A stretch of DNA of 64,000 nt, from contig JAILWY010000026.1 in the NCBI GenBank assembly GCA_022113835.1, positions 12,179,001 to 12,243,000 of the forward strand, read 5' to 3'. The translations under genes were made by a program, and so were the position numbers. Source of the DNA: Atopsyche davidsoni. Lineage: Eukaryota; Arthropoda; Insecta; Trichoptera; Hydrobiosidae. Below are positions 17,800 through 49,400 of this stretch, one piece after another; positions within the stretch are counted from its first letter, which is position 1, and each line of letters begins with the position of its first letter. The notes under the pieces are model-generated. The model was not told where the DNA came from. It searched no databases and worked only from the letters and a program-made list of their open reading frames with translations.

Positions 17800-20158
17800 A
17801 TGATGCGTTTTGTATTCGTTGTTCTGGCAGTGTGTGCTGCGACACACGCCCAGGTAAGATTGCAATAAAGTCATCAATTGGAATAAATCGTACTAACCAT
17901 TCGAAATAAGGCATATTATCGAAATAAAGCATTTAATAAATGTTGCATGTATCGTAATTACTATGTATTGCATACGCATTAAAATACAAGGTATCTGATA
18001 CTCATTATAGCTAGTTGAAGAATAGTAACTAATTTATATAACATAATGCTGGGTTATTGGAAAAATTCCGTTAATTTGTAATTGATATTTATTATTATGA
18101 AATTAATAAATTATCTGCTTTTTTTTGCTTAGCACAGCGTTATTAATTATGTATTTGAATGAAAATGTTAGAAATTAGGGCTTATAATTTAAAGTCGATT
18201 ACCTAAAATAATTTTGACTGCAAAAATGATTGAATTGGGTTTTATCGCTGCTAATAATTCTCAAATAATTTAAAAGTACCTTATTATTGTATTGACGCGT
18301 GACTCCCCCATTATGCTATGCTTGAGGGTTCAACGGCCTAGAAATGCAAATATTTCAAAATTGAAACTGATTATATTTTGAAAATCTTCCACTACTGTTT
18401 CAACGAAACGCTGGATGGATAATTTTTTCAAGAATATTTGCATTTCATTTCCCATACAAGTCCCAACCTCGGCTGGTGTCCGGTGGCTTCCCAAACAGCG
18501 GTAACGGTGACCATTGTACCATGTCTGAACTGATCTATCGTGAACCAGCTGTACTACCAGCCGGCACCAGTCGACGGACCGGAGTACCAGTATTACTGGC
18601 CGCAGCCCCAAGCGTATTACTATGAGATTCCGGATGCAAGGGAACCCTTCTTACACCAGGAGCTGAAGGCCATCGTGAAGCTGCAGGGGGAGGTGGTCGT
18701 GGGGAACATCACCTTTACCCAGAACGGGCCGAACGGAGAGGTGCACGTCGAGGGAACTATCCTCGGACTCATGCCCGGGAAGTATGGCTTCCACGTCCAC
18801 GAGAAGGGAGACATCACGGGGGGATGCCTTTCCACTGGAGGACATTTCAACCCTTACAAGGTAAAACGAACTACACAACAACTCCTACACCACAAAATCA
18901 AAACAAAATTACTGAATTTGTATTGTAAAACTCGTATAAAAGTAACTATTATAATAAAAAATTACTCATATAAGTTCGAAACACATTATTTTTGTGCCAT
19001 GTTTATGATTAAATATATGTGGTATTGCTTTTGAGATAATAATGATTTTAATATTTTTAGTTTATTATACTACTTTTGATATTCAAAAAAAAAGATTTAG
19101 TGATACTCCTCACACCATGGAAGTACTAAGTAGTTACTAATGTAGATGAATCGCTTTGTATTTTATTACTTTAAATGATATAATATTATTTAATACAGTT
19201 TTTTGTTTTAAGTATTGATTATACCATAAAAGTTATTACGTAAAAATTATATAAATAATATTTTTTTTAACTCGTAATGTGTATAGTTCGACAGTTTGAT
19301 TAATTAATTTGGACTTTATAACCAACACGTGGAAGAATAGTTTTTCGTTAATGTACGTACAAAAATACGGTAAAATAGCCTCAAAGTACACTAATATAGT
19401 GAGCAAACAATTCAAAGTATACTTTTTTCACAATGCTAAGTATTGTACGTTCATACTTTTTTTGTTTTAGGTGGTATCATGTTCTTAAAAATACAATATG
19501 TCGTGATTATTTATCCACTATGCAATAGATTCATTTTAACGGGTTACTTATTTAATATGTATGTCTGAGATGCATATGAAATCACTAAAAATAATGTTTG
19601 AACATTTTAACATGCGAGAAGGTGAACGGATTATGTCACTATAAAGCAATAACCATGGGATGTGGGTTCATATCCCACCTGAGACTCGTTAAAAATAATT
19701 GAGTCATTTTCCTCGTAACGTAACGTGAAACTTTATGTACGTATTGTGTATGTAAAAAGTTTTGACAAAATGTGAAACCATGCATATTTATTGCGTAACA
19801 AAAAATATGAAAAACGAAACTTCTTGATGCATTTGAAATCTTTTCGCGTGTGTTAAGAATTTTTTTTTTTTTCATTTGTGTGTAAAATTGTTATCTGAAA
19901 TAGATGGAACACGGTGCTCCCGAGGATAGCGTCCGTCACGTTGGGGATCTGGGCAACATCGAGTCAGACTCTTACCGCATCTCGAGGGTAGATATCGTGG
20001 ACAAGCTCATCTCGCTGACCGGGGAGAGGAGCATCCTGGGACGCGCCGTCGTCGTGCACTCCACCGTGGACGACCTCGGGAGGGGAGGACACGCCGACTC
20101 CAAGAAGACCGGAAATGCCGGCACCAGGGTGTCCTGCGGCGTCATCGGCATCGTGTAA
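17800..20158 (+). CDS. Extracellular Cu/Zn superoxide dismutase (gene B), catalytically complete
   Basis: Converts superoxide to peroxide and oxygen outside the cell. Coding exons: 17800-17853, 18549-18860 and 19904-20158, all phase 0, giving 206 residues. Exon 1 encodes an 18-residue signal peptide ([18 protein letters not shown]). Exon 2 opens with a 37-residue Tyr/Pro-rich segment not seen in the other genes, then the first barrel half with GFHVHEKGD (ligands H46 and H48), the disulphide Cys in GGC, and bridging His in GHFNP. Exon 3 has EHGAP (H71), VRHVGDLGN (H80, D83), VVVH (H120) and GTRVSCG (Arg143 and Cys146). All catalytic residues are present. An alternative acceptor CACCAG at 18659 would remove the Tyr-rich segment in frame, giving 169 residues. 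AATAAA lies at 20311 and 20319. A further 3' exon at 21328 may give a membrane-tailed form. Probably the Sod3-type extracellular enzyme; the orthology is inference. Confidence 0.92.
19642..19690. repeat. tRNA-like T-arm fragment, possible SINE remnant
   Basis: Contains GTGGGTTCATATCCCAC, a T-arm and B-box-like motif that recurs in related form near 36852 and 43805. There is no D arm, anticodon arm or acceptor pairing, so this is not a tRNA gene. It lies in gene B intron 2. Confidence 0.35.
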
Positions 20159-21327
20159 TGACCCACACCTTCAAACATATATAGTATAAGAGATTTTGAA
20201 AACATAGGAAAAAATCGCTAAACGCAAAATATATCATTAAGCATGTCTCTTCTGCGATCAATGGATCCTTTAGAACCTATTTATTTTGTAATTTATTTAG
20301 AAATGTTTTTAATAAATGAATAAAAAATATATTTCCTATCTCTTATCATCTGTGTAAAGCCCACTACCTTCATCTATGTCTTACTCCTCGCATAAACAAA
20401 AAAAACGAATGTAGAATAATGCATTGTGCTTTTTGCATCAATTTTAGATTAATAATTATGTAACATTTTGAAGAATTCCTATTAGACATTTGGTATACAA
20501 TGTGGTCTGGAGCAAAACATATAATAAATATTACCTAAATGGATAATTAAAACTAAAATGGAAGTCTCATATATGAACTAACCATTTTATTAAAAAAATC
20601 TATTAACATTCATGGACTGCTAAATAAAAAAAACGATATTTCGAGAAAAGCAGTTTAATTATAATGCACGTATAGATTAACTTAAAACGCTAATTTTCAT
20701 AGTAATAAAAGAGTAAATGCAACATTTTTATTGTACGACAAATAAAAGGCATTATTACATATCCAACGATGCGATATAAATAATATTGTTTTATTTTTAT
20801 ATATGTAAAGTTCGTATAGTTTTGATTAGCCAGCCTGCTCTGAAGTAAAAAATAAAAATCAATTTGCACAATAATTATAAATAAAATAAAAAAGATTTTT
20901 TTCAGATATTAAATTACGTTTTTATGAAACTGAATTTGAATACGCTAATAGTAGACGAAACAATAAGTTGACACACGCTTAAATTTGTAAATGCTAATAT
21001 TATACAACCAAAGTATTGATGGTGTTAAGCCGAAACCTGTTTTGTGGAAAACTTGCTATTTGTTCAGAACAAAACATTATTTTGACCAGTGACAGGCATA
21101 CTAATTATCAAAACAGTACTAAAAATACATTTCTTATTATAATCTATCACTGAATTTTCTAAAACACTTGTTACAACAGTTTTCAAGTACCTGTAAAACG
21201 TTTTAACATTCAGTTGAAAATGAAATCAAACAATTTTGCATTTGATTTGTTTGATATTTAAATTTATAATTTTTTTATTTATTGTTGGGTAAAGTTTTTT
21301 CTGATTGAAACTTTTCTGGTTTTCCAG

Positions 21328-21427
21328 GGATTACCCGATGATCATCAACAGTACAGCCCCTGCCCTGGCGACCCCGTTCGTCCTCGTAGGAACAATGCTG
21401 GTGGCCTTGACCAACAATATTTTATAA
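21328..21427 (+). CDS. Candidate alternative terminal exon of SOD gene B encoding a hydrophobic C-terminal tail
   Basis: A strong acceptor (TTTTCCAG after a pyrimidine tract) opens a 100-nt GC-rich exon ending in TAA with AATAAA at 21427. The gene B stop region reads ATC GTG TAA, which can also be read as ATCGT|GTAATG, a usable donor overlapping the stop codon. Splicing 20154 to 21328 restores the same Val codon and adds 32 residues: a short linker with an NST sequon, then ATPFVLVGTMLVAL and a short polar end. That resembles a GPI-attachment signal or a single membrane anchor. Secreted and membrane-tailed isoforms by alternative 3' exons are known for C. elegans sod-4. Base composition, phase, acceptor and poly(A) signal agree, but no transcript evidence is available. 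Confidence 0.6.
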
Positions 21428-23071
21428 ATAAATAACTTAAATATTACAACCCCTAATGCGGCGTTGACTCTGAGACATGAAAAGGTTTTCATAAGACTAT
21501 TTGAGGTTAAATGACCCCTTCGAGTTTTAAGACCTCTCGCCATTTAACTTAATTCGGTAAGTACGTAAAGTCTCTTAAATGATTGGGTACTTATGTAAAT
21601 GATGAATATGTTATGTACAATGCAAAATCAACATTTATAAATCACAATATTTTATTTAAGTACAAATAAGATGTTAAGTTTTACAGGTTTTAATAACAAA
21701 AACATATTTATTTACTAAGTAATTTATATATACTTGTAATTAATCATAAAAAAAGTATTTTTTTAGCCAAAGAAAAGAAATTTACACTGTATTTCCATTT
21801 TCAATCATAGATTAATACTCATTTTTTCCACTTAGACACAGTAAAATATATGTTTTAATTATTTTTTTATTGTACTTATTTATTTATATTTTTGATTGAA
21901 TGTCTTTCTTAATTGTGGAGAGTATCAAACAATATTTGGTAAAATTTTGATTTGCTGGATTTTCTTTTAAAAAATAATATTAAAAATATATCATGTTACA
22001 AAAAATGTAAAATTGAATATTAATATATTCATCCGAAATTTTGTTTATTTTTAAGTATTGTTGAATAAAAAGCTCTGATACAATGTGAAAATACTGTTTT
22101 ATTTAATTAATAGTACAATTAGAAAAATATAATTCATCTTTCACATTGTTATATGAAAGTAGAAAAATATTATTGTTACTATTTTATATGGTACCTTGCA
22201 AATAGTAAAAAGTTTCAAAATAAATCATAGATGGCGTTTAAACAAAATTTAAATTTATTATTTTTGAAAACGAGTAAAAAAAATTAAAACTAAGAGTAAA
22301 TTAATATTTTATATAAACCATGTAGTCAATATTATAATAAATCCACACATTAAATACTTATGCATACTTAAGTTATAAATAGTAATGTTCATTTTTCTAA
22401 ATTAAAAATATTTTGGCATAGTTAAGTTGATAAATATTTTATGGATAATTTAACGATTCATTTTGTTTTAATAAGATTATCTACCGTAAAGTTTTATCAA
22501 AAAAAAATATACTAATTTATGTATGAAATTTTTTTCTTCATACTACGAAAGCTAACACAATCAAAAAGAAATCCTGAAATGAATTCAAAGATGGCGTTAT
22601 TTTTTTCAGGTGAACAATTTTTTTCATGACTAGAATAACTTGTTTTCACTATGACTTATGTTTTTCTTATTTCGTAATAAAATTATTATTAAGCTTAAAA
22701 GTGATTAGTATTACAGTTGAATAAATTTTTTATATTAAATCTAAAAATATTTTATTTATAGATTTAAGATGTTAAAATATCCACACATATTACGACTATA
22801 AATTTAGTATAAGACAAAAATTTAACACTTACAGGAAAACGATTACGATTTTGTTATTTTATGAAAAATTATCCACTTTTGGTTTGGCAGTGTTTTTGCT
22901 TCTACAGCATCGATAGAGTTTTTGTGTGTATTTATTTAAGACTAAGATAATTTTGTTAGTGTAAATGACCAAAGCTAGATTATATGCGTGCTATCTGTGC
23001 TCTCAGAGAGATTCAGTCGGTATGTTACGTGGATTCCCATGCTTATTAAAATTTATCGCGAAAACGTGGAG
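21428..23071. other. AT-rich intergenic region and distal gene C upstream
   Basis: No gene recognised. From about 22480 onward this sequence has a diverged second copy at about 29132-29960, so part of it belongs to the duplicated upstream block of gene C. Confidence 0.5.
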
Positions 23072-24103: not shown

Positions 24104-26417
24104 ATGCATATTATATTATTCGTGCTAGCAGCAAGCGCTGTTGCAAATGCTCAGGTATGATATTATAATAATATTTATCATTTAATATTAAATTGTAATT
24201 AGCAAAAAGGTAGCCATCAGTAAATAAATTTATCCAAATAAGAGCGCTAAGCCTCATTTAGCTATGTAACGCCTATTGAATACTCAACAAATTTGCATTT
24301 AACAGCTATACAAGCTTGTCGTGTCAATAATGTTTTATCATATACGATACGTTCATAAACCCATAAAAAAACATATGTGGGAATTCCATACTAGAAGGAT
24401 ACCGAGGTGCTGTTATTTTATTAATGTCTTAAATACACCCTCGATATTGCAAAATATTTGAAAATCTGCTTATATGTAAAATTATGAACGTTCTTATTAA
24501 TGCCCTGTGTACCCAAAATATTTTGATTTGACTGTGCACTTATTTGTTGTGACTGTCTCTGCTCGAGCCTGTCTTGTTTTTAAATACGAATTCCGCTGGC
24601 ATTTGCAGTTTACGGCCATTGTGAAGATGCAAGGAGAAGGAGTTTCGGGGAATATCACCTTCACCCAGTACACCACCCATGCACTGGTGCACGTCACAGG
24701 AACCATCCTTGGCCTGAAGCCCGGGAAGCACGGACTGCACGTGCACGAGAAGGGAGACATCACGGGGGGGTGCATTTCCACTGGGGTGCATTTCAATCCG
24801 TTTGGGGTAAAACGTGAAAAATGTTACTTTGAAAAATAATCATTTATATACGGAGGCTTACGTTTAAGTAATTTATAACAAATACAGCCGTAAGATTGTC
24901 TAAAATAATACTGTAGTATGCATTTTTATGAAGACCCTCGAAGATAATACACAACATATACTAAATTTCGTTAATCTCCTAAAGACGATTTGGTGTCACA
25001 AAACTACCAAAAATTTTTCTTTAAAAATAAAACTGTGAGTGTACGCGATATTGATATTTTGTTGCACCATATATTGTTGTAATATTTGGTTGCGATGAAT
25101 AATTTATAAATGCATGCAATATGTCAAATACTTTTACTGTTACATTTTTTGAATCGACTCATCATTTAACAAATAAACTTTCCATGAACGAAAATAGTTA
25201 CAGTATCTGATATAGGTCGGACGCAATGATTCACTAGGAACTTGTATATTCAAGGACCAATGCGTATTGGGTTGTGTTTACAACCATGCCCAATCAATAG
25301 TTAATATTCTGAAAGGATGTTAGTGGTTGTCGTTACTGACCTGGTCACGAGCTAATGGTGATGATTGTCACAGGTGCCATGGAGATGTCCCAGTTCCGAG
25401 CTCGCCAACTTATCGCCTTTATCCAGGTTGATTGAATGTAGAAATCGAGGACTTTTATGACGGCCAATGATATGAATGTAACAAATCAAATATATGGGAA
25501 AGAGTACTTTTTTTCGGATAGCAACGTCGTTATTTTCAATTATTGTAAATCTTTTGGGTCAATCTAATGTAGTTTGGCAAAAAGATGTATGTTCTAGGTC
25601 CGCACGCGATGACAGTTGCAAGAAAAGAGGACGTTGTTCCAGTCGGAGTTCTTGTGTTGGCAGGCGTGGCGTAAAATCAGCCAGACAATTATTGTTACAA
25701 TAGAAGAAAAAAAAAATAGAGCTCACTGGCCGCGTGTTTAAACAGCAAATACTTCCAAAGACAATTCTAATTATATCATGTAAATTGTAAATGAATTCCC
25801 AAGCGTCAGTTTCATATACCGTAGAAATTCCAACATTCTGTTTTTTTTTTTTTTATAAATTTTAATATTATTTCCGACAGACTAATTCAATTTCAAGTTT
25901 TCTTTTTAACCAAAAATATGACCAATGGCTAGTGGATTTCAATCGTTTTTATTAGTGTCTTCTTCAGACATATAAAAATTATTGTAGTTTCACTATTTCC
26001 AAATATATTTTTTTAAGGAAATAAATTGTTTCAATGATTATTTGTGGCTTTAAATTGATGTCTGCCTTAGTGGAACATAAAAAAAATGTGATATTGCTCT
26101 TGTTTATATAGGCTGTAGTTGGATTTTTAATAACGCGTGTTGTATTCAATCTGTAACAGGTAGAACACGGAGCCCCTGGAGACAGCGTTCGCCACGTCGG
26201 GGATCTTGGCAACATCGTGTCTGATGATAACAAGATCGCTATAGTGAACATAGTGGACAGGGTCATCAGCCTGTCTGGACGGAGGGGCATCATTGGACGC
26301 TCCCTCGTGGTGCACGCTGAAGCTGATGACTTTGGAAGGGGAGGAAGTCCCTTATCCAAGACGACCGGAAACTCTGGCGCCAGGGTAGCCTGCGGTGTCA
26401 TCGGCATATTGCAATGA
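24104..26417 (+). CDS. Extracellular Cu/Zn superoxide dismutase (gene C), catalytically complete
   Basis: Secreted superoxide dismutase paralogue of gene B. Coding exons 24104-24154, 24609-24806 and 26160-26417, all phase 0, giving 168 residues. Exon 1 is a 17-residue signal peptide ([17 protein letters not shown]). Exon 2 runs directly into the barrel without the Tyr-rich segment of gene B; it has GLHVHEKGD (H46, H48), GGC and the bridging His in GVHFNP. Exon 3 has EHGAP (H71), VRHVGDLGN (H80, D83), VVHA (H120), DDFGRGG in the electrostatic loop and GARVACG (Arg143, Cys146). Every ligand and the active-site Arg are present, so it should be active. The exon 2 donor has the same GTAAAACG sequence as gene B, supporting descent from a common ancestor. 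AATAAA at 26606. No alternative membrane-tail exon was seen downstream. Confidence 0.92.
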
Positions 26418-27574: not shown

Positions 27575-28632
27575 ATGTACGGTGTTGTCGTACTTGTAAT
27601 TTTGGGTGTAAGCGCTGTAAGCAACGGCCAGGTAAGTAAAAAAAACCTCTTCATTATATTCAATTCATTGAATTGATTCGGCAAAGTACTTGCATGTTCA
27701 TTCGTTTTTCTCATTATATATCAAAATCATTTTATACATAGTATCTTCAAGCGATTGTGCACCTGAGAGGCGAGTTAGCCAACGGAGACGTTACCTTCAC
27801 CCAGCAAGTTCTTGACGGAGAGGTTCTCATCGAGGGCACCGTCACAGGTCTGCCGGCAGGTCTTCATGGCTTCCGCGTCCTGGAGGATGATTCGGAAATT
27901 GGTGATGGATGCGGGTCTACCCCTGGCCACTTCAACCCATTCGATGTAAATAAATATTTTTATTTTTGCTATTGAACTATTTTGGAATTCAGAAAAAAAA
28001 CTCTTGAAAATGAGTGTGGAAATTTGGAATTAATTTTATAATTTATAGTATAATATATTAACTTTGTTTATGATAGTAAGAGCTACTTTTGTTTTGAAAA
28101 CAGTCATAGTCAAATGAACACCATTTGTAAATCTTTAAAAATATTTAAGTGTTGTTTGATATATGCAATTTTGTATACAAACATCCCAGTATTACAATTT
28201 GAGTATAATGAAGTATTTATTCGTTTACAAAACACAGAATATAGTATAGTATTGTTATTAGTAATTTATATTACCATCACAAATGAAAGGAATTGAGCAT
28301 ATTCTTTATATTGCACACTGTATCTTCATTTCAAAATATGATTTATTCACGTCACATACATTACTAATGAGCTGTGTTACTGATTCTAACGTTTGGTTGA
28401 GCAGAATGATCACGGCCGCCTTGACGACTTCGAGCGCCAAGCTGGAGACCTCGGCAACATCGAGTTTGGAGAAGATCAAGTGGCCACGATCAGCATCCGC
28501 GACAGTCTCATTTCCCTGAGCGGAGAGAGGAGCATCGTGGCCCGCGCCGTGGTGGTGACTTCCGGCCCCGACTTCTCCACCGAAGACAACTCCAGAAACC
28601 CCGTGTCTTGCGGGATCGTCGAACTCCTCTAA
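27575..28632 (+). CDS. Secreted SOD-like protein (gene D), copper site lost and loop shortened
   Basis: Coding exons 27575-27631, 27742-27945 and 28405-28632, phase 0, giving 162 residues. Exon 1 is a 19-residue signal peptide (MYGVVVLVILGVSAVSNGQ). The barrel is recognisable (AIVHLRGE, VTFTQ, GLPAGLHGF, GHFNPFD, AGDLGNIE, ISLSGERS, PVSCGIV). Ligand changes relative to SOD1: H46 to Arg and H48 to Leu (GFRVLED), H80 to Gln (ERQAGD), H120 to Thr (VVVT) and Arg143 to Pro. It keeps H63, H71, D83 and both disulphide Cys. The electrostatic loop is nine residues shorter than in E, removing the His-rich part. Copper binding should be abolished and the zinc site is also damaged. The frame and splice sites are intact, so it may still make a folded secreted protein. 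It is a close tandem copy of gene E. No consensus AATAAA was seen just downstream. Confidence 0.9.
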
Positions 28633-28916
28633 AAAGTTTCCTTAACTTCAACATTAGATATCATTCAACCCCTTTCATCTTTGAATGCGTTTGAATATAT
28701 TAGCCTGGATATAATCACCTATTTAAATTATTCATTTGCTCAAAATTATATATATCCTATCATGTATTTTCTAAGACGATATTCTTGCTGAAAATATTGT
28801 TATTTAAAATTATAAGTGTGTATTGTTTTTTTTTATATTGTATTTATAAAAAATTACAAATGTATTAAATGTTTGTATTCATAAAACTGCTTCGATTTTT
28901 ATTCACCATTTACTTT

Positions 28917-28921
<5 letters not shown>

Positions 28922-28980
<59 letters not shown>
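28922..28980. repeat. (AT)n microsatellite
   Basis: An uninterrupted AT dinucleotide tract of about 29 units in the 3' flank of gene D. The equivalent flank of gene E lacks it, so it expanded after the duplication. Shorter (TA)n tracts occur near 13777, 23475 and 39545. Confidence 0.95.
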
Positions 28981-28986
<6 letters not shown>

Positions 28987-29129
28987 CGAGCGAAAAATAT
29001 TTATTATTAAAATATAAACATGATTAACCATAGTAAGCGTTGCACTGTACTTTAAAATGATTAGTATTTTATCCATACATATTAACTTGTAACTTTACAA
29101 ACTCACAATAACTTGACATTAAAATGCGA

Positions 29130-29965
29130 TGATCTACCGCAAAGTTTTATATAATATATATATTAATTATGTATGAGAATTTTTTTTTCTACATACTACG
29201 AAAGCTAATACAATTAAAAAGAAATCCTGAAACGAATTCAATGAAATTTTTTTCATGACCTGTTTAGCATAACTTGTTTTCACTACCACTTATGTTTTTC
29301 TTATTTCGTAATAAAATTATTGTTTTCCTCGAAGCGATTACAAGTATAACAATTGAATTTTTTTTTTTATAATTACTAAAAATATTTTCTTTTTCGATTC
29401 CAGATGAAAAAATATCCACACATATTACGACTAGAATTAGTATAAGCCAAAATTTAACACTTGCAGAAAAACATTTATGATTGATGAAAAATTATTGACT
29501 TTTTGTTTGACAGTGTTGTCGCTTCAATATCAAAGCTACAGCATCAATAGAGTTTGTGTATGTATTTATTTAAGACTAAGATAATATCGATAATTGTAGA
29601 TGACCAAAGCTAGATTATTAGAGTGCTATCTATACTTTTAGAGAGATTCGGTCGGTACGTTACGCGGATATCAATGGATGTCTTCTGATTCCCGTGCTCG
29701 TTAAAATATCGCAAAAACGTGGAGAATCTCTCGCAGGCACTTGCATTCGTAAGGAAAGAAATTGAGGAAAAGAGTTGAGAGGAAAAGAGAAAGAATTGAG
29801 GAAAGAATTGTCAATCACCACTCCTCAAAAAGCGATCCGCAATTAAATTCCCAGTCCCGACAGCAAACGACACATTCAACAAAAACGCTGGAGTTGAGCT
29901 GAGAAGAGTTTTGTTACTGCTTGTTTAGATTTCATTTTAATATTAGCAGATTTTTTCATATTTTG
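29130..29965 (+). pseudogene. Orphan duplicate of the gene C promoter; gene body deleted
   Basis: Colinear with about 22480-23270 upstream of gene C. Shared landmarks in order: TACTACGAAAGCTAA, CTTATTTCGTAATAAAATTA, ATATCCACACATATTACGAC, ACCAAAGCTAGATTAT, TCTCTCGCAGGCACTTGC, AGCGATCCG, AATTCCCAGTCCCGACAGCA, then CATTCA at 29873, 30 bp after TTAAAT at 29843. The similarity continues through the putative first exon to about 29950 and then switches abruptly, within TATTTTGATTTAG, to sequence matching the 3' flank of gene C (from about 26755). No SOD exon follows. The simplest reading is that a C+D unit was duplicated and the second C body, about 3.4 kb by reference to C, was deleted. The upstream part of the box is changed from GTATTTAAAT to GCAATTAAAT. 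Confidence 0.72.
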
Positions 29966-31010
29966 ATTTAGTTTATAAACATGATAAACATGATATGTTT
30001 CTCTAAATAAAGACAGTTAATGTAGAAATATTTATACAATAATTATAGAAAAATATTGTCATTTTCTAAGTAGGCAAGTACACAAAACGTAAACATTCTT
30101 TCATTTACATTACAAATAATACCATGCAATTGTATTCCTGGAAGTGTTGCTTTATTTGTCTTAAAAATTGATAACGGAATTTTTTTGAGTTATATTAGTT
30201 GTAGTACAGTAACATATAAAAATAAAAAAAAGTAAAAATAGTAATTAATATTAATAAATATTCTAAAAAAATGCCAGACTGTATTAAAGTAACTATTTGT
30301 ATTATAACAAATTATTATCGTGGAGATAGATAAATATTATTTTAAAATTTCGATATATTTTAAAAGGGGGAGGCTTGGTATAATTAATATATATTATTTT
30401 ACAAAAGAATTTTTTTTTATCAATAATATTAATTTAAACAATTTTTAAACGAATAACTAATTTTCTTCTTATAATTTATTATAGTAAAATAATACTTCTT
30501 TGATTATAAAAAATGTCCACATTTAATCTGTTATTTTTGGCTAGTAAATGAGTTTAGCCGTAAAAAAAAAAACTTTTGAATTTACACTTGTTGTATGTAG
30601 TTTTAAGTATCAAGCCCGATGAATATTTTACTGAATTGGGGAGTTCAGTCGATATTTATAATTCAGTCATAACTTAGATGTCAAAAATTCAAGTTCAAAG
30701 AATTTTTAAAATAGAAATCATCATCCCTCACGAATATTTTCATGATCAACAATATGGATTCTGCAGTAATTATAAATAATGTAATAAAAATATATAACGG
30801 AAAGTCGTTATGCGACATTCTGTGTAGGCACTTAAAGATTTTTACAAAAACGTAAACCAAGGGTACATAAACAATAAAGATAAGGAAAATTATTGGAAAA
30901 TCCATTTTTTTTCAAAATGATAATGAACCTTGATTGCAAGCGTTAGTATGTTAAAATGTAGTAATAAAATATAACAATACGCAAGGTTTTCCTTTAATTA
31001 GTCATCGCTG
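29966..31010. repeat. Duplicated intergenic flank between C and D, now upstream of gene E
   Basis: Matches 26755-27280 in order: AACATGATATG, TTCATTTACATTACAAATAA, ACCATGCAATTGTATTC, ATATTAGTTGTAGTACAGTA, GTAATAAAATATAACAATAC and GGTTTTCCTTTAAT. Relative to that copy it carries about 0.6 kb of extra AT-rich sequence near 30330-30910 without recognised coding or terminal repeats. Confidence 0.65.
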
Positions 31011-31022
31011 GGCCCGTACTGC

Positions 31023-31109
31023 TTAAATACCTGTAGTTTGCTGCTTCTTGTCACATTCATCAGTGGATCATCAGAGCTCAAAGTTATTTGCGAACTCAAG
31101 GGTCCTGAG
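31023..31109 (+). promoter_or_regulatory. Promoter and non-coding first exon of SOD-like gene E
   Basis: TTAAAT at 31023 and CATTCATCAGT at 31054, which includes the arthropod initiator core TCAGT. The non-coding exon ends GTCCTGAG at 31109 before donor GTATAG; acceptor TTACAG ends at 31327, ten bases before the ATG. Near-identical to the gene D promoter. Confidence 0.67.
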
Positions 31110-31337
31110 GTATAGACTCATTGTGTATGAATTTATATCCTTATCAACTGCTGTTCTCACATCACTAATCTTATCATTTTATAATTAAATCGTTTGCTAT
31201 ACATCGTTTAAACTATGTAACTTGAGTGATTAATTGGTGATGCTTGCATTGATTTTTTAGTTGTTTTTTTTTTATAGAAAGTTATTAAAATATTTTTTAT
31301 AACCTACTGAATTGTTTTTGTTTACAGTTTTCATAAA

Positions 31338-32438
31338 ATGTACCGTCTTGTCGTACTTGTAGTTTTGGCTGTTAGCGCTGTAAGCAACGGCCAGGTAAGC
31401 AAAAAAACCTCTTCATTATAATCAATTTATTGAATCGATTCCATGAAGTACTTACATATTTATTCGTTTTTCTCACTGTATATAAAAAATCATTTTTTAC
31501 ATAGCACCTTCGAGCAATTGTGCATTTGAGAGGCGAGTTAGCCAACGGAGATGTGACCTTCACCCAGCAAGTTCCCGACGGAGAGGTTCTCATCGAGGGC
31601 ACCGTCACAGGTCTGCCGGCAGGTCTTCATGGCTTCCACGTCCTGGAGGATGCGGAAATTGGCGAAGGATGCGAGACTACCTCCGGCCATTTCAACCCAT
31701 TCGATGTAAATAAATATTTATATTTTTGCTATTGAAATATTTTGGCATTCAGAGGAAAGAACTCTTGAAAATGAGTTTGGAAATTTGGAATTATTTTTAA
31801 TACTACGTCACGTTAATTAAAAGAGATTTGTGTTTACATTGTTATTGTCAGTTAGAGCTGCTTTTGCTTTGAAAACAGTCATAGTCAAAGGAACACCATT
31901 TATAAATCTTTAGAAATAAGTGTCGTTTAATTTATGGTATTTTGTATACAAACATTCCAGTATTATAATTGGAGTTTGTCTTTGCAAACGAAATGAGTAT
32001 TTATTCGTTTGCAAAACACAGAATATAGTATAGTTTTGTTATTAGTAATTTATATTACCATCACAAATGAAAGGAATTGAGCATTTTCTTTACACACTGT
32101 ATGTTCATTTGAAAATATGATTTATTCACGCCACTTACATTGCTAATGAGCTGTGTTATTGATTCATACGTTTGGTTGAGCAGAATGATCACGGCCACCC
32201 TGACGACTCCGAGCGCCACGTTGGAGACCTCGGCAACATCGAGTTTGGAGCAGACCAAGTGGCCACGATCAGCATCCGCGACAGTCTCATTTCCCTGAGC
32301 GGAGAGAGGAGCATCGTGGGCCGCGCCGTGGTGGTGACTTCCGGTCCCGACGACCACGGCCACACCAGCCACCCTGACTCCCCCATCGACGGCAACTCCG
32401 GAGACCCCGTCTCTTGCGGGATCGTCCAACTCCTCTGA
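31338..32438 (+). CDS. Secreted SOD-like protein (gene E), copper site lost, zinc site kept
   Basis: Coding exons 31338-31394, 31505-31705 and 32184-32438, phase 0, 170 residues. Signal peptide MYRLVVLVVLAVSAVSNGQ, then the barrel with GLHGFHVLED: H46 kept but H48 is Leu. The bridging His (GHFNPFD), H71 (NDHGHP), H80 and D83 (ERHVGDLGN) remain, so the zinc site looks whole. H120 is Thr (VVVT) and Arg143 is Pro (GDPVSCG), so only two of four copper ligands remain and dismutase activity is unlikely. The electrostatic loop is replaced by the His/Asp-rich segment DDHGHTSHPDS. The disulphide Cys pair is kept. The exon 3 acceptor is a GAGCAG tandem site that could add one Gln. It is a recent tandem copy of D with an intact frame, and could be a metal-binding or decoy secreted protein; function is unknown. 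Confidence 0.93.
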
Positions 32439-33681
32439 AAACTTTCGCAAACTTCAACTTTACCATAGATACGCTATGACCTCTTTAATGCTTGTATGCA
32501 TGTGAATATATTCGTCTAGGTATTTTTAGCACCTATTAAATATATTCACTAGCACAAAAAAATATATTTTATCATATATCTTCTTAGACGATATTTATCC
32601 TAAAAATATTGTTGTGTATGTGTTTTGTTTTTTTTTAAATATTGTATATCTATTAAATGTTTATATTCAAAAAAACTGCTTTGATTTTTATCCACAAATC
32701 TTTACAAAAATAGTGAGTGTTTTGACATTTCAAAGAGTTCATAAGACCTTTGCAAGTGAAAAATATTTATTGTTAAAATATACATGATTAACTATGGTAA
32801 GCGTTGTACTGTAATTTAAAATTTTCAATTTTTTTTGACCACACATATTTACTTGTAATTTTACAAACTGGCAATATCATTTACAAGAGCGAACGAGATA
32901 GAACATAAAAAATTACAATATAAATTGCTACAATGGTTCGGTTTTACAATCAGCGTCAGAAGTTAAAATGGAGTCTTTTATGTATTACCATATAATTAAG
33001 ATATGGCGTCATATTTTTATACTTAAATAATGTTTAATAATTTAAAATGTTACAGTGAATATCATATTAAGTAATGAATTCTCTCTCAAACTTGGACGGA
33101 CTGTCATGGTTATATCGTAATGTGTAGGTATGCTGTAATTTACCTAAATGCAACTTGGTGACATTATTAAATATGGCGTGATTCAAAAGTGTTAGTAAAA
33201 GTTATGATTTTGTCAGTTAGAAGTCAATTTTGATTTTGTGGGTATCGAAACTTGTTTAAAATATTTTTTTAAGATGCACTACAGGTACCGATTACTTATT
33301 TAACATTAATCAACTGCTATATATTATTATATATGTATATTTAGAAATAATAAGGAAAATGCAAGGCACTTGCAATTATCAAGAATCCTTCTATCATGAA
33401 CATGTACACATGTGAGTAGGTATGTACTTATAGTTTTTTTTTGTCGTTTTCTTTAATTTATTAATAAAAACATGTATGGCTTAGCACAGATGCATATCAA
33501 TTTTTTAAAATTAAAATTGATTCATTTTTTTGACCTCTTTGTTTAAAGTTGCAATACTGAGTAATTTCTGTATATGGGTAAAAAAATTATGAATTGTATT
33601 ATTACGTTAAATTTCATAAGATAAAAAAAGAAATCACAATTGAATAGTTATTCTTGTTAACTAATATTTTATTTAAAAACT
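32439..33681. other. 3' flank of gene E
   Basis: The first 430 bases match the 3' flank of gene D (for example GAAAAATATTTATT, TACTTGTAATTTTACAAACT), confirming that the duplicated unit includes this flank. The rest shows nothing recognisable until the pseudo-exon at 33682. Confidence 0.6.
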
Positions 33682-33794
33682 GACAGTTATATTGAAAAAA
33701 AAACATTAATGGTCACGTTATCGTGATGACTAAAAGTAAAGATGATAAAGGCCACTCCAGCCACCCTCACTCACATAGTAATTCAAACCTATGA
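33682..33794 (+). pseudogene. Decayed SOD-like exon, gene F type
   Basis: A clear remnant of the last SOD-like exon. Reading from 33705 gives a peptide that parallels gene F: a GHVIVMT strand where F has GRAVVVT, followed by DDKGHSSHPHSH where F has DDHGHSSHPHSH. At the DNA level GGCCACTCCAGCCACCCTCA is identical to F. Upstream, GACAGTTATATTGAA at 33682 corresponds to the F segment DSAISLN with a deletion and frameshift in an A run. A stop follows at 33792, before the Cys146 segment. No promoter, signal exon or first barrel exon belonging to it was found. It shows that at least one further paralogue existed between E and F. Confidence 0.75.
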
Positions 33795-34640
33795 CACCTC
33801 ATCTCCTTTCAGGCTTTATTTATATTAGACATTCTGACTTATATTATTTTAATTATCTACGTGAATATTACGAGAATGCTGCTGTAAATTAATTTAAAGT
33901 TATGATACACTTAAAAAATAAAAATTATATAACCAATTGGCTAAAAGAAGTATTAAAATAATTTGGTTGTTAAAACTCGCACTTTTTAAGTGTTGTTATT
34001 CGAGGCTTCATTTTATTTAATTTAAATGTTTATTTATTTTTAATTAAATGGATGGAAGAAACTATACATATTTTAAATTTCAACTGAGTTTCTTTTGCGT
34101 GAATTTCAAAACACATAAAAAACATTACGTGGATCTTTTGTAGAGTTCATGTCTTCCAATGCAATAATGGAGATAATCAAAACTATTCTCACTCATTTTA
34201 TCTAATCAGCAATATACTTTTTATTAAAAAAGCAGCTTTACAGTCAAAAAGTAGGACCAACTGGACAAATGACAAACGGACAAATGACATAATTGTGCAA
34301 ACAGAAAATAAAGTAAACAAGGTAAGGTGTGCACATCTTATTATAAAATTATTGTTGTAATTAAGTAGTTATAGTTTTATTGAAAAGGAATTCCAGTGTG
34401 CATTGTGTTTGTTTTTTTGATCGATTCTTCTATTTTTTTCTGACACGCTTATGCATAAAACATAATATACGGGGACTTCCACAGCCTTATGAAGAATTAC
34501 AGCCAACATGTAAAAAATAAAATAAAAGTATAAGGAAAATGATTTATTAAAACTAGGAGCAAGACTTGTTTGAATACAATTCATGTACAAAGTAAGAAGT
34601 TGTATTACCTGTAGATGATGTCATTACTTCAGCAGATCTG
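33795..34640. other. AT-rich intergenic region before gene F
   Basis: No gene or recognised repeat; separates the pseudo-exon from the gene F promoter. Confidence 0.4.
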
Positions 34641-34641
34641 C

Positions 34642-34727
34642 TTATATAGCGATATTCCGCTGCTCTTCGTTACATTTATTGACTGGTTTCCGAGTCAACA
34701 GCTACCTGTGCGCTTAAGGATCACCAG
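34642..34727 (+). promoter_or_regulatory. Promoter and non-coding first exon of SOD-like gene F
   Basis: TTATATAG at 34642 is followed 31 bp later by CATTTATTGACTGG at 34673. The exon ends ATCACCAG at 34727 before donor GTATGT. The acceptor AATAG ends at 35182, eleven bases before the ATG. More diverged than the D/E promoters but with the same spacing. Confidence 0.6.
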
Positions 34728-35193
34728 GTATGTTTATATTACTCCAGTTTTCCTTTGTAACACTCCTGTCATTATAAATTGTTTATATATTTGATTGCTC
34801 CGACTGACTATTAAGTTGACTATCCTATTACAAAAATAATGTAAAATGAAATATTTTTATTTAATACGTGGACTAAATCTAGTGTAAAACGATTTTCAAT
34901 TGAACTAATTTAACATTAACAAATGACATTTAATAAAAACAAAAACAGAATTAACATCAGATATAAATTCTGTAATATTATTATTTGTTTGCAATCATAT
35001 TTCATTAATAGTTGATAGTGATATTATTTGTTTCACTTCACTATGTATTTTAAAACATCTTTTTTTGGTTAAATTTCACGGTATAATTTGTCTTATTTTT
35101 TATGTGTTTGTTTGGTGCAAAAACTTTTATTATTCTCGGTAGTATCTAATGACTCATTAAAAGTCTTTTTTCATTTCAATAGATATTGAAAAC

Positions 35194-36296
35194 ATGTGCC
35201 GTCTTGTCTTACTTGTCGTCTTGGCAGCTTGCGCTGTGAGCAATGCCGAAGTGAGTATAAAACATCATTAATTAATCCAAATATGAATTTAACATTATCA
35301 TCACCAATCATTTAGACCGTTTAAGATATTTACACTATGAACACTGGCTTAGCATAAATATATGTTCAGTGAGATGGTCGCTAATCTCCTCTGAGGAGAG
35401 GCACCTGAAGAAGACTAGAAGACCAATCAAAATAATAAGTATTAATAAATTGATATTAACATCTTATTGATTTCATCGTAAATTTTCCAAAAATATATTA
35501 TATAATTAAATTAACATTTGTATTTTTTTTCTAGACCTTGCGAGCGATCGTAAAGCTCAAAGGAGAGTCGGTCAACGGAGAGGTGACCTTCACGCAGGCT
35601 GAGAACCAGGGGGGAGTCCTCATCGAGGGCACCGTCTCTGGTCTGCCGGCAGGACTCTATGGGTTCCACGTCCTAGAAGATGGGGAAATCGGCGAAGGGT
35701 GCAAGACTTCTTCCGGACACTTCAATCCCTATAACGTAGGCATATATTTTAACTATTATTTTCAAATATATTCAAAAACAGCGGCAACTTACCACGTTTC
35801 ATTTCATTGAAATTTTTATAAGTGGTACTGTTATTTATTAAAATAACAGTACCACTATCAATAATAATGAATTATTATTGAAAAAGTGTTACTTTTTTAA
35901 TTTGTTGGTATTTTTAAAATATCGTTAGTATAAAATTTGTTATAACCAGATTTGTTTTAAAATAAGCGTATAAGTTAAATTTTTTTTATCCACTAATACT
36001 GAATAACAATCTTACTTATTCTGGTGATTTCTATTGAGCAGCAGGATCATGGCCATCCCGATGACCTCGAACGCCACGTTGGAGACCTCGGCAACATCAA
36101 GTTCGGAGAGGACCGCGTAGCCAAGGTCAGCATCCGCGACAGTGCCATTTCCCTGAACGGGGAGAGAAGCATCGTCGGCCGCGCCGTGGTGGTGACTTCC
36201 GGGGAGGATGACCACGGCCACTCCAGCCACCCTCACTCACACGTCAACGGCAACTCGGGAGAGCCTGTCACCTGCGGGGTTGTCCAGCTTGTTTGA
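35194..36296 (+). CDS. Secreted SOD-like protein (gene F) with a His-rich electrostatic loop
   Basis: Coding exons 35194-35250, 35535-35735 and 36042-36296, phase 0, 170 residues. Signal peptide MCRLVLLVVLAACAVSNAE, then AIVKLKGESVNGEVTFTQ and GLYGFHVLEDGEIGEGC: H46 kept, H48 is Leu. The bridging His (GHFNPYN), H71 (DHGHP) and H80/D83 (ERHVGDLGN) remain, so a zinc site is expected. H120 is Thr and Arg143 is Pro (GEPVTCG), so the copper site is incomplete. The loop between the lost H120 and the disulphide Cys reads DDHGHSSHPHSHVNGNSG, with five His in twelve residues, which could form a new metal-binding surface. The acceptor is a triple GAGCAGCAG site. Intron 2 has a perfect 16-bp stem-loop and intron 1 a dispersed-repeat copy. 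AATAAA at 36535. Confidence 0.93.
35337..35416 (+). repeat. Dispersed repeat, copy 2
   Basis: An 80-bp segment in gene F intron 1, colinear end to end with the copy in tetraspanin intron 4 (45297-45376). Shared parts include TGAACACT, TTTATG/ATATG, GGTCGC, CTCCTCTGAG and AGAGGCACC. Probably a SINE or retroelement-tail fragment. Confidence 0.65.
35821..35856. repeat. Perfect 16-bp inverted repeat with 4-base loop
   Basis: Arms AGTGGTACTGTTATTT and its exact reverse complement flank ATTA in gene F intron 2. The hairpin is too short for a canonical microRNA precursor and is not GC-rich; function unknown. Confidence 0.85.
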
Positions 36297-43482: not shown

Positions 43483-46400
43483 TCAGGCCGTGCGAGACGT
43501 CCTTCCACTCTCGGAGGTTTCTGTCTTATTCTCCTGCTTGATTGACTGAGCTAACCACAGCGCCAATACTATTCCAATGACCTGGAAGAAACGATATCAT
43601 GAAACAAAAGCCTACTTAAACCCATATATTTGATATCTTACAAATAAAATTCAGTACACAGGTTTGAATACAAATTATTTTTAATGTATTTTGTTTAAAT
43701 AATAAATCCACATTTTTCATTCGTACAGGTTTATTGTATATTCAACATATAAGAATTTGACTTATAAATATACTGATGGATGGTGAATTTTTGATACCCG
43801 TAGTGATGTGGGCTCGAATCCCACCAGTTTATTGTAATCATTTCATGAAATTCTAAATAAATTTGTACTAAAACATAAAAATGAACTAGATAAGGCAAGA
43901 CATGGACATAAGATTTCCATTATCTACGCTGTATTGAATTAATGGTCAATGGCAGTGTTGACATAATAATGACATATAATTAAGCACATGATGCTTGATG
44001 TAGTACAAAATATTAACTATGAAATACTGTTTATTCCTCTGTCAGCTATTCGCCAAGTGTCCTTTTAAACGGTAGTGTTAATTTTGACATGTTATAACTA
44101 CTTGTCATACTAACAGCAAACATTGGCATTTCATTTTCAGTTAGCACAGTAGGTCATGTAATATTTCTCGTTACGTAGTATTAAAACTCGACCTATTAAA
44201 AAAGTTATTAGCTTTGTTGGTCTGAATTATGAATCCACGTAAACATGATTGCTGGTTTGTTTGCTCGTAATATAACTGGATGTTTGGATAGTTAGAAATA
44301 AAAGTTTTTTTTTTAAGGAGTCAAGCTATCGATTGCTTTCAATGTGACCTTTTGAATTAATAACGAAATAATTAACCATTATCTGTGCATGCGTAATCAA
44401 AAGGACGGTTTGCTAAAACTATACATATTTGGAATCTATAAATATGTTTATTGATACTCGTTTATCGTCAGATTCATTCCGCTCTACCTTGGCTATAGAT
44501 ATGAGATTGATTTCCTTTTTGCATTTTAACACTACTACCAAAACTACCGGCAATTAATATACTTCACATGAAAAATTTTGAAGCTATAAATAAAAATATT
44601 GTGTTGCGATCTATAAAAATGACGAAGTATACATGGCGGTTACTTTAAAATTAAGTTCAAAACAGCTTTACCCAAAAGATAGTCGCATAAAACGAGATGT
44701 CAGTTAAACAATTTGCATATAGGCTTGTGGATGATGAAAATGCATGTAAGGGTAGAAATACAAATAAGTCGAATTCTTATAGAACAGTGCTTCTCAAAGT
44801 GGTCCCTACGGACCCCAGGTGGTCCCTGAGATCATTCAGGGGGGTCCTTAGAAAATTAAAATCGATTTGGGGGTCCCTGGACAACGTCAGGGGGTCCGCG
44901 CAAGGTTTAGTAAAATATAAATATAGGCAGGTGCAAAAATACAATTAATAACAGGCATCGCGGTGAGTCAGGTAGGTTAATACAGGAACGCAATAGTCTA
45001 TAATATGAATTTATGTAGTTTTTCACCCAGGGTCCGTAGGCAAGTTTTGACTATGAAAGGGAGTCCATGGGCAAGTTTTGACTATGAAAGGGGGTCCGTG
45101 GGGAAATTTGACTATGACAGGGGGTCCGTTGGCAAGTTTTGACTATGAAAGGGGGTCCGTAGGCCAAAATAATTTGAGAGCCACTGTTTTAGAAGGTCTT
45201 AGAACACAATATAAAGTATGAAGAAATTGCAAATGATAAATGTATTTGTGTATCAGTAGATATTACAAAGTGTAGAAGGACTACACTATTTTCCCCATGA
45301 ACACTAAATCAGAATAAATTTATGCTTAGCGGGAAGGTCGCCGGCCTCCTCTGAGAAGAGGCACCCGATAAAGAAGATATTACAAACGCAATGGGTGGAA
45401 ATGGTATGTGCGTAAGTTGTACTGTTCGAACCTCGAGGAAGCAGAAGACAATGCCGGTGACTATGACGGCTATGCCCGCTCCGTGCACGGTCTCCAAGAT
45501 GCGGTCCTCGCAGCCCGTGGGGTAGTAGGCCTTCTGCACCACGCACTCGCTGCGGCGGCTCTGCTCGGCCTGCTGCGCCTGGGCCGCGCTGGGGGAGCTG
45601 TCCCCTCCGCCGCTCCCGGGGCAGCAGGACGCGGGGGGCACGGGGATGTTGTTGCTCACCTCGTTGTAGTCCTCTGGCCCGATCACCCCGCAGCAGTGCA
45701 GCTGGGCAAGAGTAAAAACACCCGTCAAACGAAATTCTGACGCTGTTTCTTTTAAATATCACCCGAGTGACTTTTTATTTAGACAAGGTTGTGAATTGAA
45801 GAAATAGGATATTCTGCTGAAAATTTTTAATTTAACATCAAGTCTTATTAACATTTTCTCCTAAGTGTCTTTTTATGCCACGGAAATCTAGCTAGAATGT
45901 GTAATATGATGCCTCTTTCCTCTTTGCAGGAACGCAGCATATATCGAAGAAATGCCTGCGGGGAATCTACCCCGCAGGGAAAGGATGCCTTTCTTTCAGC
46001 TTCTTTTTATTTTTGAGAAAAAAGAAACGCCCCTGTAACCCGGTAGGTGCTCGATGGCGGTCCCGGGTACGGGTTGCAAAAAAAAAAAAGGTTGTGAATT
46101 GAAGAAATAGAATATTCTGCTGAAACTCTTACTTAGAAATCGTAAGGTATGATGTATGAGCTAAATTGGGTATGTAATGTAAGTGTAATACGATTGAAAA
46201 GAAGCATAAATAACACAATAATCATTAACTTTTTTACATAAAAGGAGAAAATGACAGTATAAATTATTCATTAACGGAATGGGTTCAACGATAAAATCAA
46301 GATACATGCCGGTACGTCAAACTTTATTTTAAGGTCAAGAATAAATTCATATTAACAAAATATTGATTATTTTAGATTGCTTTTATTTAATCAAATTTAA

Positions 46401-49400
46401 ACCGACTAGATAATTTTGATGAGACTTGCGCTAAGTGGTCTCAAGAGTCAATGAACTCACAAGTAAAAACAGAACAAGAAATGCGAAAAAACTCTTACAT
46501 TCATTTGCAGCTTGTCCCAGAAGACTCGGTGTCCCGAATCTGCCTTGTTCTTGATGAAAGACTCCCGGAGGTGCTTCTTGACTGTGGTCTCCATCTGAGG
46601 TCTCAGAGCTGCTGCAGCAATGCCCACAGACAGCTCCAGAATGATGATCAGCGCCAGGCAACCAGCAAACTAAGGACAAATGCATTTGTGATATACTTAT
46701 GTAATTTATTGTTACAAATTTAATATTCTTTCGTCTGGATTAGTAGTTTATCCTTTGTGTATGAGATTTAGAATAATATATTTACTGAATCATGTTACTC
46801 AAAGTCAGTAGGGCGGGTGACTTAAAAACGAATGACTATTACCGTCTTACGAAGTAATTTAATGAGAGCTTGCCGTAAAGTTTAAAATCTTTAGGTTCGC
46901 TTTTGCTTCAAAAAAAAATTAGAACCTATTTTTTTACCAGGAATAAGCTAGGCTTAAGATATATCGCTGCACGAAGTTTGCTACGACTTTTCAAGCTATC
47001 TTTTTAAGCAAAAGACGATTTACAGATTAATTAATAAACGTTTTGAAAAACATTGATGCTAACTTGGAGATACTTCGTTAATCAAGGGTTTGGCAAAAAA
47101 ATATTATTGACCACGTTAACTTGTTTTTTTTATTAAAATCCGCATGAAATGGAAATGTTCAAAATAAACTCAAGCCTATTATAAATAAAAGTTTATTTAA
47201 AGATTTTTTTTCACACATTAGGAAAAAAAATGTGTTCAGCACTTTATATTTCCTGTAATTATTTTTTCGAACATAAACAGGATTTATGAATATGCCTGCC
47301 ATATGCATAAAATTCAACTCATTTTGACAGTCTCGTATTACTGTCATAAAGATCGTATACGTTTGTTTATCCTTTTTTTAAAGAAATATTATTAGTATTG
47401 ATATTAAAACTATATATATAGTATAATAGATGTTTCAAATTCCATTTGTGTTTTCACATAAAATTCTATATGGTTAAACAAACAATTATTATCAGAGCCT
47501 TTATTATTAGATGCATAATGCAAAAAATTAAGAAAGATACCCACTATATAACACTGAGATAACAAAGGTTATTATTTTTATCATAAATGAATTGTCAAAG
47601 AGTTTTTTGTAGATAATATTGAGATCCTCCATATTCAGGATCGTATGAAGTGGAGCACATTCAGACATTGTTGTGAATATTGAGTGGACACTGAAAATAG
47701 CGTCAAGGGCTGCTGAGTGGCCCAAAGAGTAGTACTCGTAGATTAGAGTAGAGTAGAAAGCCTACGTGCAAAATCAAACGGCTTAATTTTAACCAGTGTT
47801 GAATCTGAATTAAACTTGAACTATAATTTTCAGTAGAAATTCCTTTGAAATTCCATGTTGTCATGGGTTTTAAGTGGCATTCATTTTGACGAAGGGGAAG
47901 TCATTAAGGAGTTCTGCCGTGTCGGCCAGCTTGAGCCGAATTTCGCATTCAAAAAAGTGCTTATAACGTTTGAATAGTTTTTTTAATGCTGGGCAAATAA
48001 CTTCCTTAGTGACTTTGAAAAGAATAAATCGCCGACTATGATAAGAATTGCTAATAATTACTACTTGTAACATTGTCCATTGTTTACTTGCTCGTGTCGG
48101 AAAATTGGACGTTTGATTTGATCGAAGTTTAAATCGTGATTTTTGTATAACTGTCAGGTTTTGATTGGTGGTCTCGTTTAATAAAAATTTACAAAAAAAC
48201 ATTTTTTGGTTTGGTTATCAGAAATTTCTGTATTTTTTTATATTTTTCCTCTAAATTTACACTCGATAAAAATTATATCAAACTTAAAAATTTACTCTCA
48301 ATATATTTTACAACTTTAAATTTTGACTTTCTCGTTTAGAGATTAGAGAAAAAATAGATTGTAACATTCATTTTTTATTGAAATAGATCGATATGGGGAA
48401 AGTAAAATATGGATAAATTTTCAAATGAATTAGGTCTATCTTAATGATCTAACCGTGTCTCTGCTATTAATTGTATTTTTTAATGCTTTTAATTTACTTA
48501 CGCAGAATTCGAACTGACAATTATTCGGTAATTTACACAGGAATCTCTAAGTTATTCTGAGCATAAAAAGGCAAATTGCGAATTTGGCCATTGCCCAGCC
48601 CCGACGAAGATACCATCAGTTGGCGTGTCCTGTCGGTGTTGTGTTCGGTTTAGTGTTCGTGTAGAGCTACCGAAAAACTATTATTTTCAGGAATATAAAA
48701 GATATGACCGTATTGTGAGACAATATGCGTTGATACAACATGCGTGTTAATAGCGATCTAATAGCATAATTTAATCCAAATATTAATATGACTTAAAACA
48801 CGCTTATTATTCTGTAAACCTCGCGGAACTGTTAACAGCAATCAAACGCATGTCTATTAAATGATGCAATAATTTTTTTTTACAATAAAATTTGTTGTTA
48901 CGTGTTTAAGCTACCGCGTGTTACGTTACAATAGAAACTCGATTATCCGGATCGAAGTGGAACAAGGAAGGTTCGGATAGTGAAAATCCGGGAAATAGAT
49001 TCTGCGCAATACCTTTTGTGAAAAAGTATTCATTTTAAAAAATAAAATGGTATTAATCTCAATAAAGTCATATTTATAACATATTATAAAAAAACATATT
49101 TTTAATTGAAAAGTTTTACTTTTCAATATTCAAAAATAAATCATGATTTCTCGTAGGTCATAATTTATATTTAAAAATTAACAATTTTAACATATATTTA
49201 GTAATATTTTTGTTTCTGGTCTTAGATTTATTGTTTTATAATTGTTTGAATAGCGACAGAGGTGTAAAAAATGAAATCACTCACAATATAAAGAAGCTTG
49301 ACGCTTTCTTTGATGGCTCCAAAGCAGCCAAAAGCGGCGATGATGAGGATCAGGATTCCAATAACAATGAGCAGGATGTCAGTTTCAATACCACTGACTT

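Follow-up and report, generated by a model that had tools for sequence, protein, structure and literature searches.

Gene B of the window, as we call the 64,000-nucleotide stretch of Atopsyche davidsoni DNA analysed here, is a Cu/Zn superoxide dismutase (SOD) gene of the extracellular SOD3 type, and it probably has two alternative 3′ ends, one for a soluble enzyme and one for an enzyme held at the membrane by a hydrophobic tail, most likely through a GPI anchor. Three coding exons make up the short form and four the long form. If the last intron, predicted at 20155–21327, were left in and the 3′ end formed downstream of an early poly(A) signal at about 20311, translation would stop at a TAA formed by the splice donor, and a soluble enzyme of 206 amino acids would be secreted. 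Splicing of the same intron would instead add a hydrophobic C-terminal tail of 32 residues, and the resulting protein of 238 amino acids would be held at the outer membrane face, most probably by a GPI anchor. We infer that both transcripts are made, that competition from polyadenylation sets their ratio, and that the tail anchors the protein to the membrane in the manner proposed. This reading builds on the sequence features of the gene, on the coding-type base composition of the tail exon and on tailed and untailed insect relatives whose sequences diverge after the same residue.

All exons of gene B lie on the plus strand. The coding part of exon 1 (17800–17853) encodes a predicted signal peptide of 18 residues, hydrophobic by hydropathy, and ends in a strong donor (CAG/GTAAGA, the slash marking the exon end). 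Exon 2 (18549–18860; donor AAG/GTAAAA) encodes a Tyr/Pro-rich extension followed by the first half of the Cu/Zn SOD domain. Exon 3 would run from 19904 to 20154 in the long form, ending in ATC GT, and from 19904 to 20158 in the short form, ending in ATC GTG TAA (GTG at 20153–20155, TAA at 20156–20158) with a 3′ UTR continuing beyond. The predicted tail exon (21328–21427), if joined at 20154/21328, rebuilds the identical Val codon and continues with DYPMIINSTAPALATPFVLVGTMLVALTNNIL to a TAA at 21425–21427, the frame being open for 32 codons after Val. The protein holds one Sod_Cu domain (PF00080, residues 68–203, E 3.8e-46, 157.3 bits against a cut-off of 28.9). Invariant in an alignment of 22 rows are H100, H102, H117, H125, H134, D137, H174, R197, C111 and C200, which we take to be the copper and zinc ligands, the active-site arginine and the disulphide cysteines.

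The proposed switch centres on a donor, GTAATG (20155–20160), that overlaps both the last codon and the stop of the short form: its GT (20155–20156) takes its G from GTG and its T from TAA, and the last exon base is 20154. A previous sequence-only reading had proposed this gene end, this donor and an exon at 21328, and all were found at, or within a base of, the positions it gave; the restored Val codon, the 32 open codons, the hydrophobic tail and the terminal TAA with its AATAAA are likewise present. On a crude scale the donor (CGT/GTAATG) scores 4.0 of 10.5 and is the weakest of the three in gene B, the other two scoring 9.5 and 7.5. It has neither G at −1 nor G at +5, and 34% of the 3475 plus-strand GT dinucleotides in the window score at least as high. 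The exon-2 donors of the paralogous genes D and E (GAT/GTAAAT) score 5.5 and that of gene C (GGG/GTAAAA) 5.0. The acceptor, with its AG at 21326–21327, closes a pyrimidine-rich stretch, TTTTCCAG (21311–21327), and is preceded by a candidate branch point, CTGAT (21301–21305), picked by eye. It had been called strong; an acceptor is indeed there, but of ordinary strength, as 156 YAG acceptors on the plus strand outside the SOD exons have at least as many pyrimidines. Among eight donor/acceptor pairings tried, the tail frame was read only with the donor at 20155 and acceptor exons starting at 21328 or 21352. An alternative donor at 20153 was rejected, as it scored lower and gave a polar frame when joined to the acceptor at 21328.

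Candidate poly(A) signals are present for both forms. Two AATAAA hexamers at 20311 and 20319 (20311–20324) could serve the short form, and a third (21427–21432) overlaps the stop of the tail exon by one base. The hexamer at 20311 does lie inside the would-be intron, as had been pointed out, though AATAAA is common on the plus strand of the window, with 186 copies or 2.9 per kb. As evidence this is a cheap feature that proves little, and it was set aside.

Harder to obtain by chance is the joint occurrence of a frame that is open and in phase, a C-terminal segment that is hydrophobic and uncharged, and a base composition of the coding type. The GC content of the tail exon is 51% against 26% in the surrounding intron, and by codon position it is 0.47/0.41/0.69 in the predicted frame, compared with 0.62/0.40/0.75 in the body of gene B; the GC-rich position falls third in the predicted frame only. 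Equally GC-rich were 73 of 3429 overlapping 97-base stretches (2%) outside the SOD exons between 5000 and 44000. When acceptor-like sites outside the SOD exons were searched for an uncharged hydrophobic C-terminal tail following in the same phase, a test whose criteria were chosen after the tail had been seen, one of 294 sites passed (156 on the plus and 138 on the minus strand) and none when G was required as the first exon base, while first-order Markov sequence gave 0.33 passes per 64 kb over 30 runs. By these measures the tail exon looks real. The tail sequence as such appears to have no conservation: a homology search with residues 191–238 of gene B gave four candidates and no match at E≤0.001.

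The relatives were drawn from two protein searches, the best 120 of 7768 and the best 120 of 7977 matches giving 162 distinct proteins. By a simple rule, 73 of these listed homologues have a hydrophobic tail after the CGVIG-type motif (66 with a hydrophobic N-terminus, seven without), 42 end at most two residues after the motif (36 of them have a hydrophobic N-terminus, and P0088 and P0098 among these carry fungal names), and 47 have other endings or no motif. The fungal P0127, with 208 residues after the motif, was left out, leaving 72 tails of 25–60 residues. According to source names, tailed forms occur in Plutella, Papilio, Cydia, Pieris, Arctopsyche, Protohermes, Drosophila, Anopheles, Fopius, Macrosteles, Rhodnius, Tenebrio and Schistocerca, which we take to represent Lepidoptera, Trichoptera, Diptera, Hymenoptera, Hemiptera, Coleoptera, Megaloptera and Orthoptera. 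In gene B, at the level of the predicted exon, the hydrophobic tail directly follows the last SOD strand, and the nearest caddisfly relative, Arctopsyche grandis P0014, has its tail at the same place. Fopius arisanus isoforms X1 (P0095) and X2 (P0120) share 172 identical residues, after which X2 stops at GIM and X1 goes on into a tail; no other short and long form among the 162 listed proteins have the same body. That insect homologues either end or enter a hydrophobic tail at the same residue supports the secreted/membrane switch originally suggested from the letters of the stretch. The NST sequon also noted there is present in the tail of gene B, but an NxS/T sequon occurs in only 7 of 72 relatives' tails; it is thus not a conserved part and was set aside as evidence.

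Endings of a different kind were also seen. P0016, P0022, P0044 and P0096 (Rhagoletis, Bactrocera, Sarcophaga and Haematobia) have another C-terminus, rich in Pro, Tyr and His, after the same motif. Cu/Zn SODs were confirmed in 241 of 250 matched stretches of IMG/VR viral contigs, and the one examined among 80 kept from these 241 loci (L034, 3001–3603) ends after CGVIILKD and has no tail.

Any phase-2 intron with a GTAA donor brings the overlap of stop codon and donor with it, so that the overlap is not independent evidence. When such an intron is retained it always reads NNG TAA, and the restored codon is likewise no separate coincidence; Val is restored because the intron is in phase 2, the donor is GTAA and the acceptor exon starts with G. 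If the stop is made by the donor elsewhere too, the last residue of short forms should be one with an NNG codon. This holds for 35 of the 36 short forms with a hydrophobic N-terminus (L in 21, M in six, V in four, K in two, W and E in one each), a set of related proteins and not 36 independent tests, in a code where 13 of 20 residues have an NNG codon. The single exception, P0035, is labelled 'partial' by its source. The last residue is L, M or V in 31 of the 35, which under the donor-stop reading, and from a comparison of proteins, would correspond to T at donor position −1.

The tails themselves bear on the type of anchor. In 69 of 72 tails a triplet of small residues lies before the hydrophobic core, compared with a fraction of 0.33 among 5000 control stretches from the same proteins. 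After the extended hydrophobic segment a median of 2.5 residues remains, although tails were selected to have their core at most 10 residues from the end and the hydrophobic end is partly a matter of construction. Two or more K/R residues among the last eight were found in one tail, and a single one in 40 of the 72, the latter count speaking against a GPI signal. The tail of gene B has the small-residue triplet, four residues after the hydrophobic segment and no K/R. Given the triplets, the short stretch after the core, the rarity of two or more K/R and a segment in Bombyx mori BmSOD4 that ends at the very last residue, the tails would, as judged by hydropathy, fit GPI-attachment signals better than the transmembrane segment of a type I membrane protein. 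In print, as far as the available text of the two sources goes, such tails are called transmembrane (PMC6379424, PMC4274663). Among the titles listed in searches of the literature on GPI-anchored insect SOD and on insect SOD splice variants, none concerned a GPI-anchored insect SOD, and the GPI-anchored SOD that was found is fungal.

The window holds six SOD genes, A to F, and of gene A only the last exon was seen, at about 1286–1567. In a scan for signal-peptide exons, genes B to F had one candidate each, with the two adjacent ATGs of gene B counted as one; that of gene C (24104–24154, 17 residues, donor CAG/GTATGA) was the sole candidate between 20160 and 24600. As each of C to F has a candidate of its own, none of them needs the tail exon, and its assignment to gene C was rejected on this ground. 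A donor at the gene end was found in B only, the others ending in CCC TGA (A), TTG CAA TGA (C), CTC TAA (D), CTC TGA (E) and GTT TGA (F). The end of gene C (26406–26417) reads ATATTGCAATGATCC where B has ATCGTGTAATGACCC, with GCAATG for GTAATG; the stop TAA has become CAA and the frame runs one codon longer to TGA, as if the tail form had been lost or the donor had turned into a rare GC donor. A looser screen for tails downstream of the six genes gave 16 candidates with overlaps counted (A 3, B 5, D 6, F 2, none for C or E), two of which are starts within the tail exon at 21328–21427. The candidates for A, D and F are unsupported, these gene ends lacking a donor GT, and the one for gene D at 31328 holds the signal-peptide exon of gene E. 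In a tree of 39 domains without strong support and with an arbitrary root, gene B was nearest by path to gene C (0.68) and to Arctopsyche P0014 (0.72) and fell outside the lepidopteran clade. Together with a Tyr-rich N-terminal stretch common to B and P0014, the tree points to a caddisfly, or a near relative of one, as a likely source.

Genes D, E and F (27742–36293) differ from B within the domain. The FHVHEKGD of gene B is FRVLEDDSE in D and FHVLED in E and F, and its VVVH reads VVVT in all three; the histidines lost are presumably those of the copper site. The three genes are probably inactive as SODs, judging from these replacements, though each keeps a candidate signal-peptide exon. Between D and E the SOD domains share 84% identity. 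On the minus strand, tetraspanin pieces (PF00335) were seen at 45312–45758 (35.8 bits, above the cut-off of 32.1) and at 49231–49473 (28.5 bits, below it). Among the listed homologues, Parnassius P0033 has both PF00335 and PF00080, and the C-terminus of Iphiclides P0027 carries a long additional stretch. The SOD/tetraspanin neighbourhood may be old, and the Parnassius and Iphiclides gene models may be merged.

Other explanations have to be weighed against two alternative ends, as the donor is weak, the tail sequence is not conserved, genes A and C to F have no donor at their ends and not all relatives are tailed. Splicing to the tail exon could be constitutive, gene B making the anchored form only and the TAA at the donor being ordinary intron sequence. 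Any retained phase-2 GTAA donor would read NNG TAA, the early AATAAA proves little at the frequency of this hexamer, and BmSOD4 was cloned as a tailed protein according to the available text (PMC6379424); a donor that is the weakest of its gene nevertheless speaks against constitutive use, as does the occurrence of both forms in relatives, seen in Fopius X1/X2, in those 36 of the 162 listed homologues that are short and have a hydrophobic N-terminus, and in the two Drosophila cDNAs. We regard constitutive splicing as unlikely.

It is more improbable still that the intron is not real and that gene B makes the secreted form only, with a chance or relic open frame at 21328. The weak donor, a tail without detectable homologues, and a paralogue, gene C, with GC in place of the donor GT and no tail candidate downstream, would all fit. 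Chance would poorly account, however, for an exon with 51% GC and coding-type third positions, of a kind found at 1 of 294 acceptor-like sites, or for the tails that other insects, the nearest caddisfly relative included, carry at this junction. The exon at 21328 also sits between B and C and has in-frame ATG codons, as might be expected if it belonged to another transcript, for instance as the first exon of gene C. With a better signal-peptide exon at 24104–24154 for gene C, one such exon each for B, D, E and F, and a stop that lies in the frame continuing gene B, this has very little probability. Gene B with alternative soluble and membrane-held ends is the reading we prefer.

If both forms are made, a single gene would divide the conversion of superoxide between the haemolymph, or silk, and the cell surface, the place where NADPH oxidases are active. 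From the relatives compared, the tail switch seems old and widespread in insects and not specific to flies. It could be the reason that SODs with and without a tail have been described as separate types, BmSOD3 and BmSOD4 for example, and if the GPI reading is true, the release and assay of the anchored form would change. A more general scheme is offered as a tentative conjecture, in which we would place rather less than even trust. In insects generally, the final exon of extracellular SOD genes would end in a donor that is at the same time the stop (NN/GTAA), and the hydrophobic Leu, Met or Val at the end of the barrel (NT/G) would force T at −1 and keep the donor weak. The coding sequence would in this way hold the balance of splicing and polyadenylation, the tail so gated would be a GPI signal and not a transmembrane helix, and insect SOD3 would be a releasable lipid-anchored enzyme.

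The Tyr/Pro-rich extension before the SOD domain of gene B (18549–18647) is partly common to Arctopsyche P0014 (YWPQPQ ... YYYE), and given this extension a role in silk is worth testing. In the caddisfly Hesperophylax, SOD3 and peroxinectin are reported from silk, where dityrosine cross-linking occurs, and in Plectrocnemia an SOD3 transcript was seen and the protein was not seen in silk, according to the parts available of PMC9432349 and PMC11092239.

A nearest relative of the mechanism in Drosophila melanogaster is Sod3 (CG9027), for which two mRNAs were cloned as cDNA, SOD3v1 of 181 and SOD3v2 of 217 amino acids (PMC4274663). Like gene B, it encodes a secreted Cu/Zn SOD with a short and a long form made by alternative splicing, the long form having a hydrophobic C-terminus 36 residues longer, but it has five or six exons where gene B has three or four coding exons. 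The added region is termed transmembrane, and in the main text as available the term 'stop codon' is absent and the donor overlap is not described in those words (PMC4274663). The same source supports the precedent cited in the sequence-only reading, C. elegans sod-4, a nematode gene with the same secreted/membrane pair made by splicing (SOD4-1 extracellular, SOD4-2 membrane-bound); the closer cases of Drosophila Sod3 v1/v2 and the tailed BmSOD4 had been missed. BmSOD4, of 201 residues, resembles the long form of gene B in its signal peptide, its Sod_Cu domain and a C-terminal segment (V181–N201) ending at the last residue, and differs in being a one-exon gene, on chromosome 8, with no second form mentioned in the available text (PMC6379424). 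Its authors derive it from a duplication of BmSOD3 with an added tail, and they report a BmSOD4-type SOD to be absent from Manduca sexta (PMC6379424, as available); BmSOD4 is possibly a retrocopy of a long-form mRNA. Two leaf-beetle SOD3s are held to be most likely unattached, extracellular SOD being undetected in membrane or cytosolic fractions (PMC4828634, in the part available), and for the honey bee Sod3 of 178 amino acids the available text uses neither 'hydrophobic' nor 'transmembrane' (PMC1847502).

In the unrelated immunoglobulin mu gene, an intronic poly(A) site competes with splicing to the membrane exons and so switches between secreted and membrane forms; there the secreted form keeps a coding tail of its own, whereas the stop of gene B would be made by the donor. 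Searches by title of the literature on secreted isoforms and intronic polyadenylation, and on caddisfly SOD, found nothing about a tail switch in SOD. Judged from its sequence, the probable switch of gene B is of the kind already in print for Drosophila Sod3 v1/v2 and C. elegans sod-4. Refined here are the explanation of the donor-stop overlap, by a phase-2 GTAA donor, and the tentative reading of the tails as GPI signals rather than transmembrane segments.
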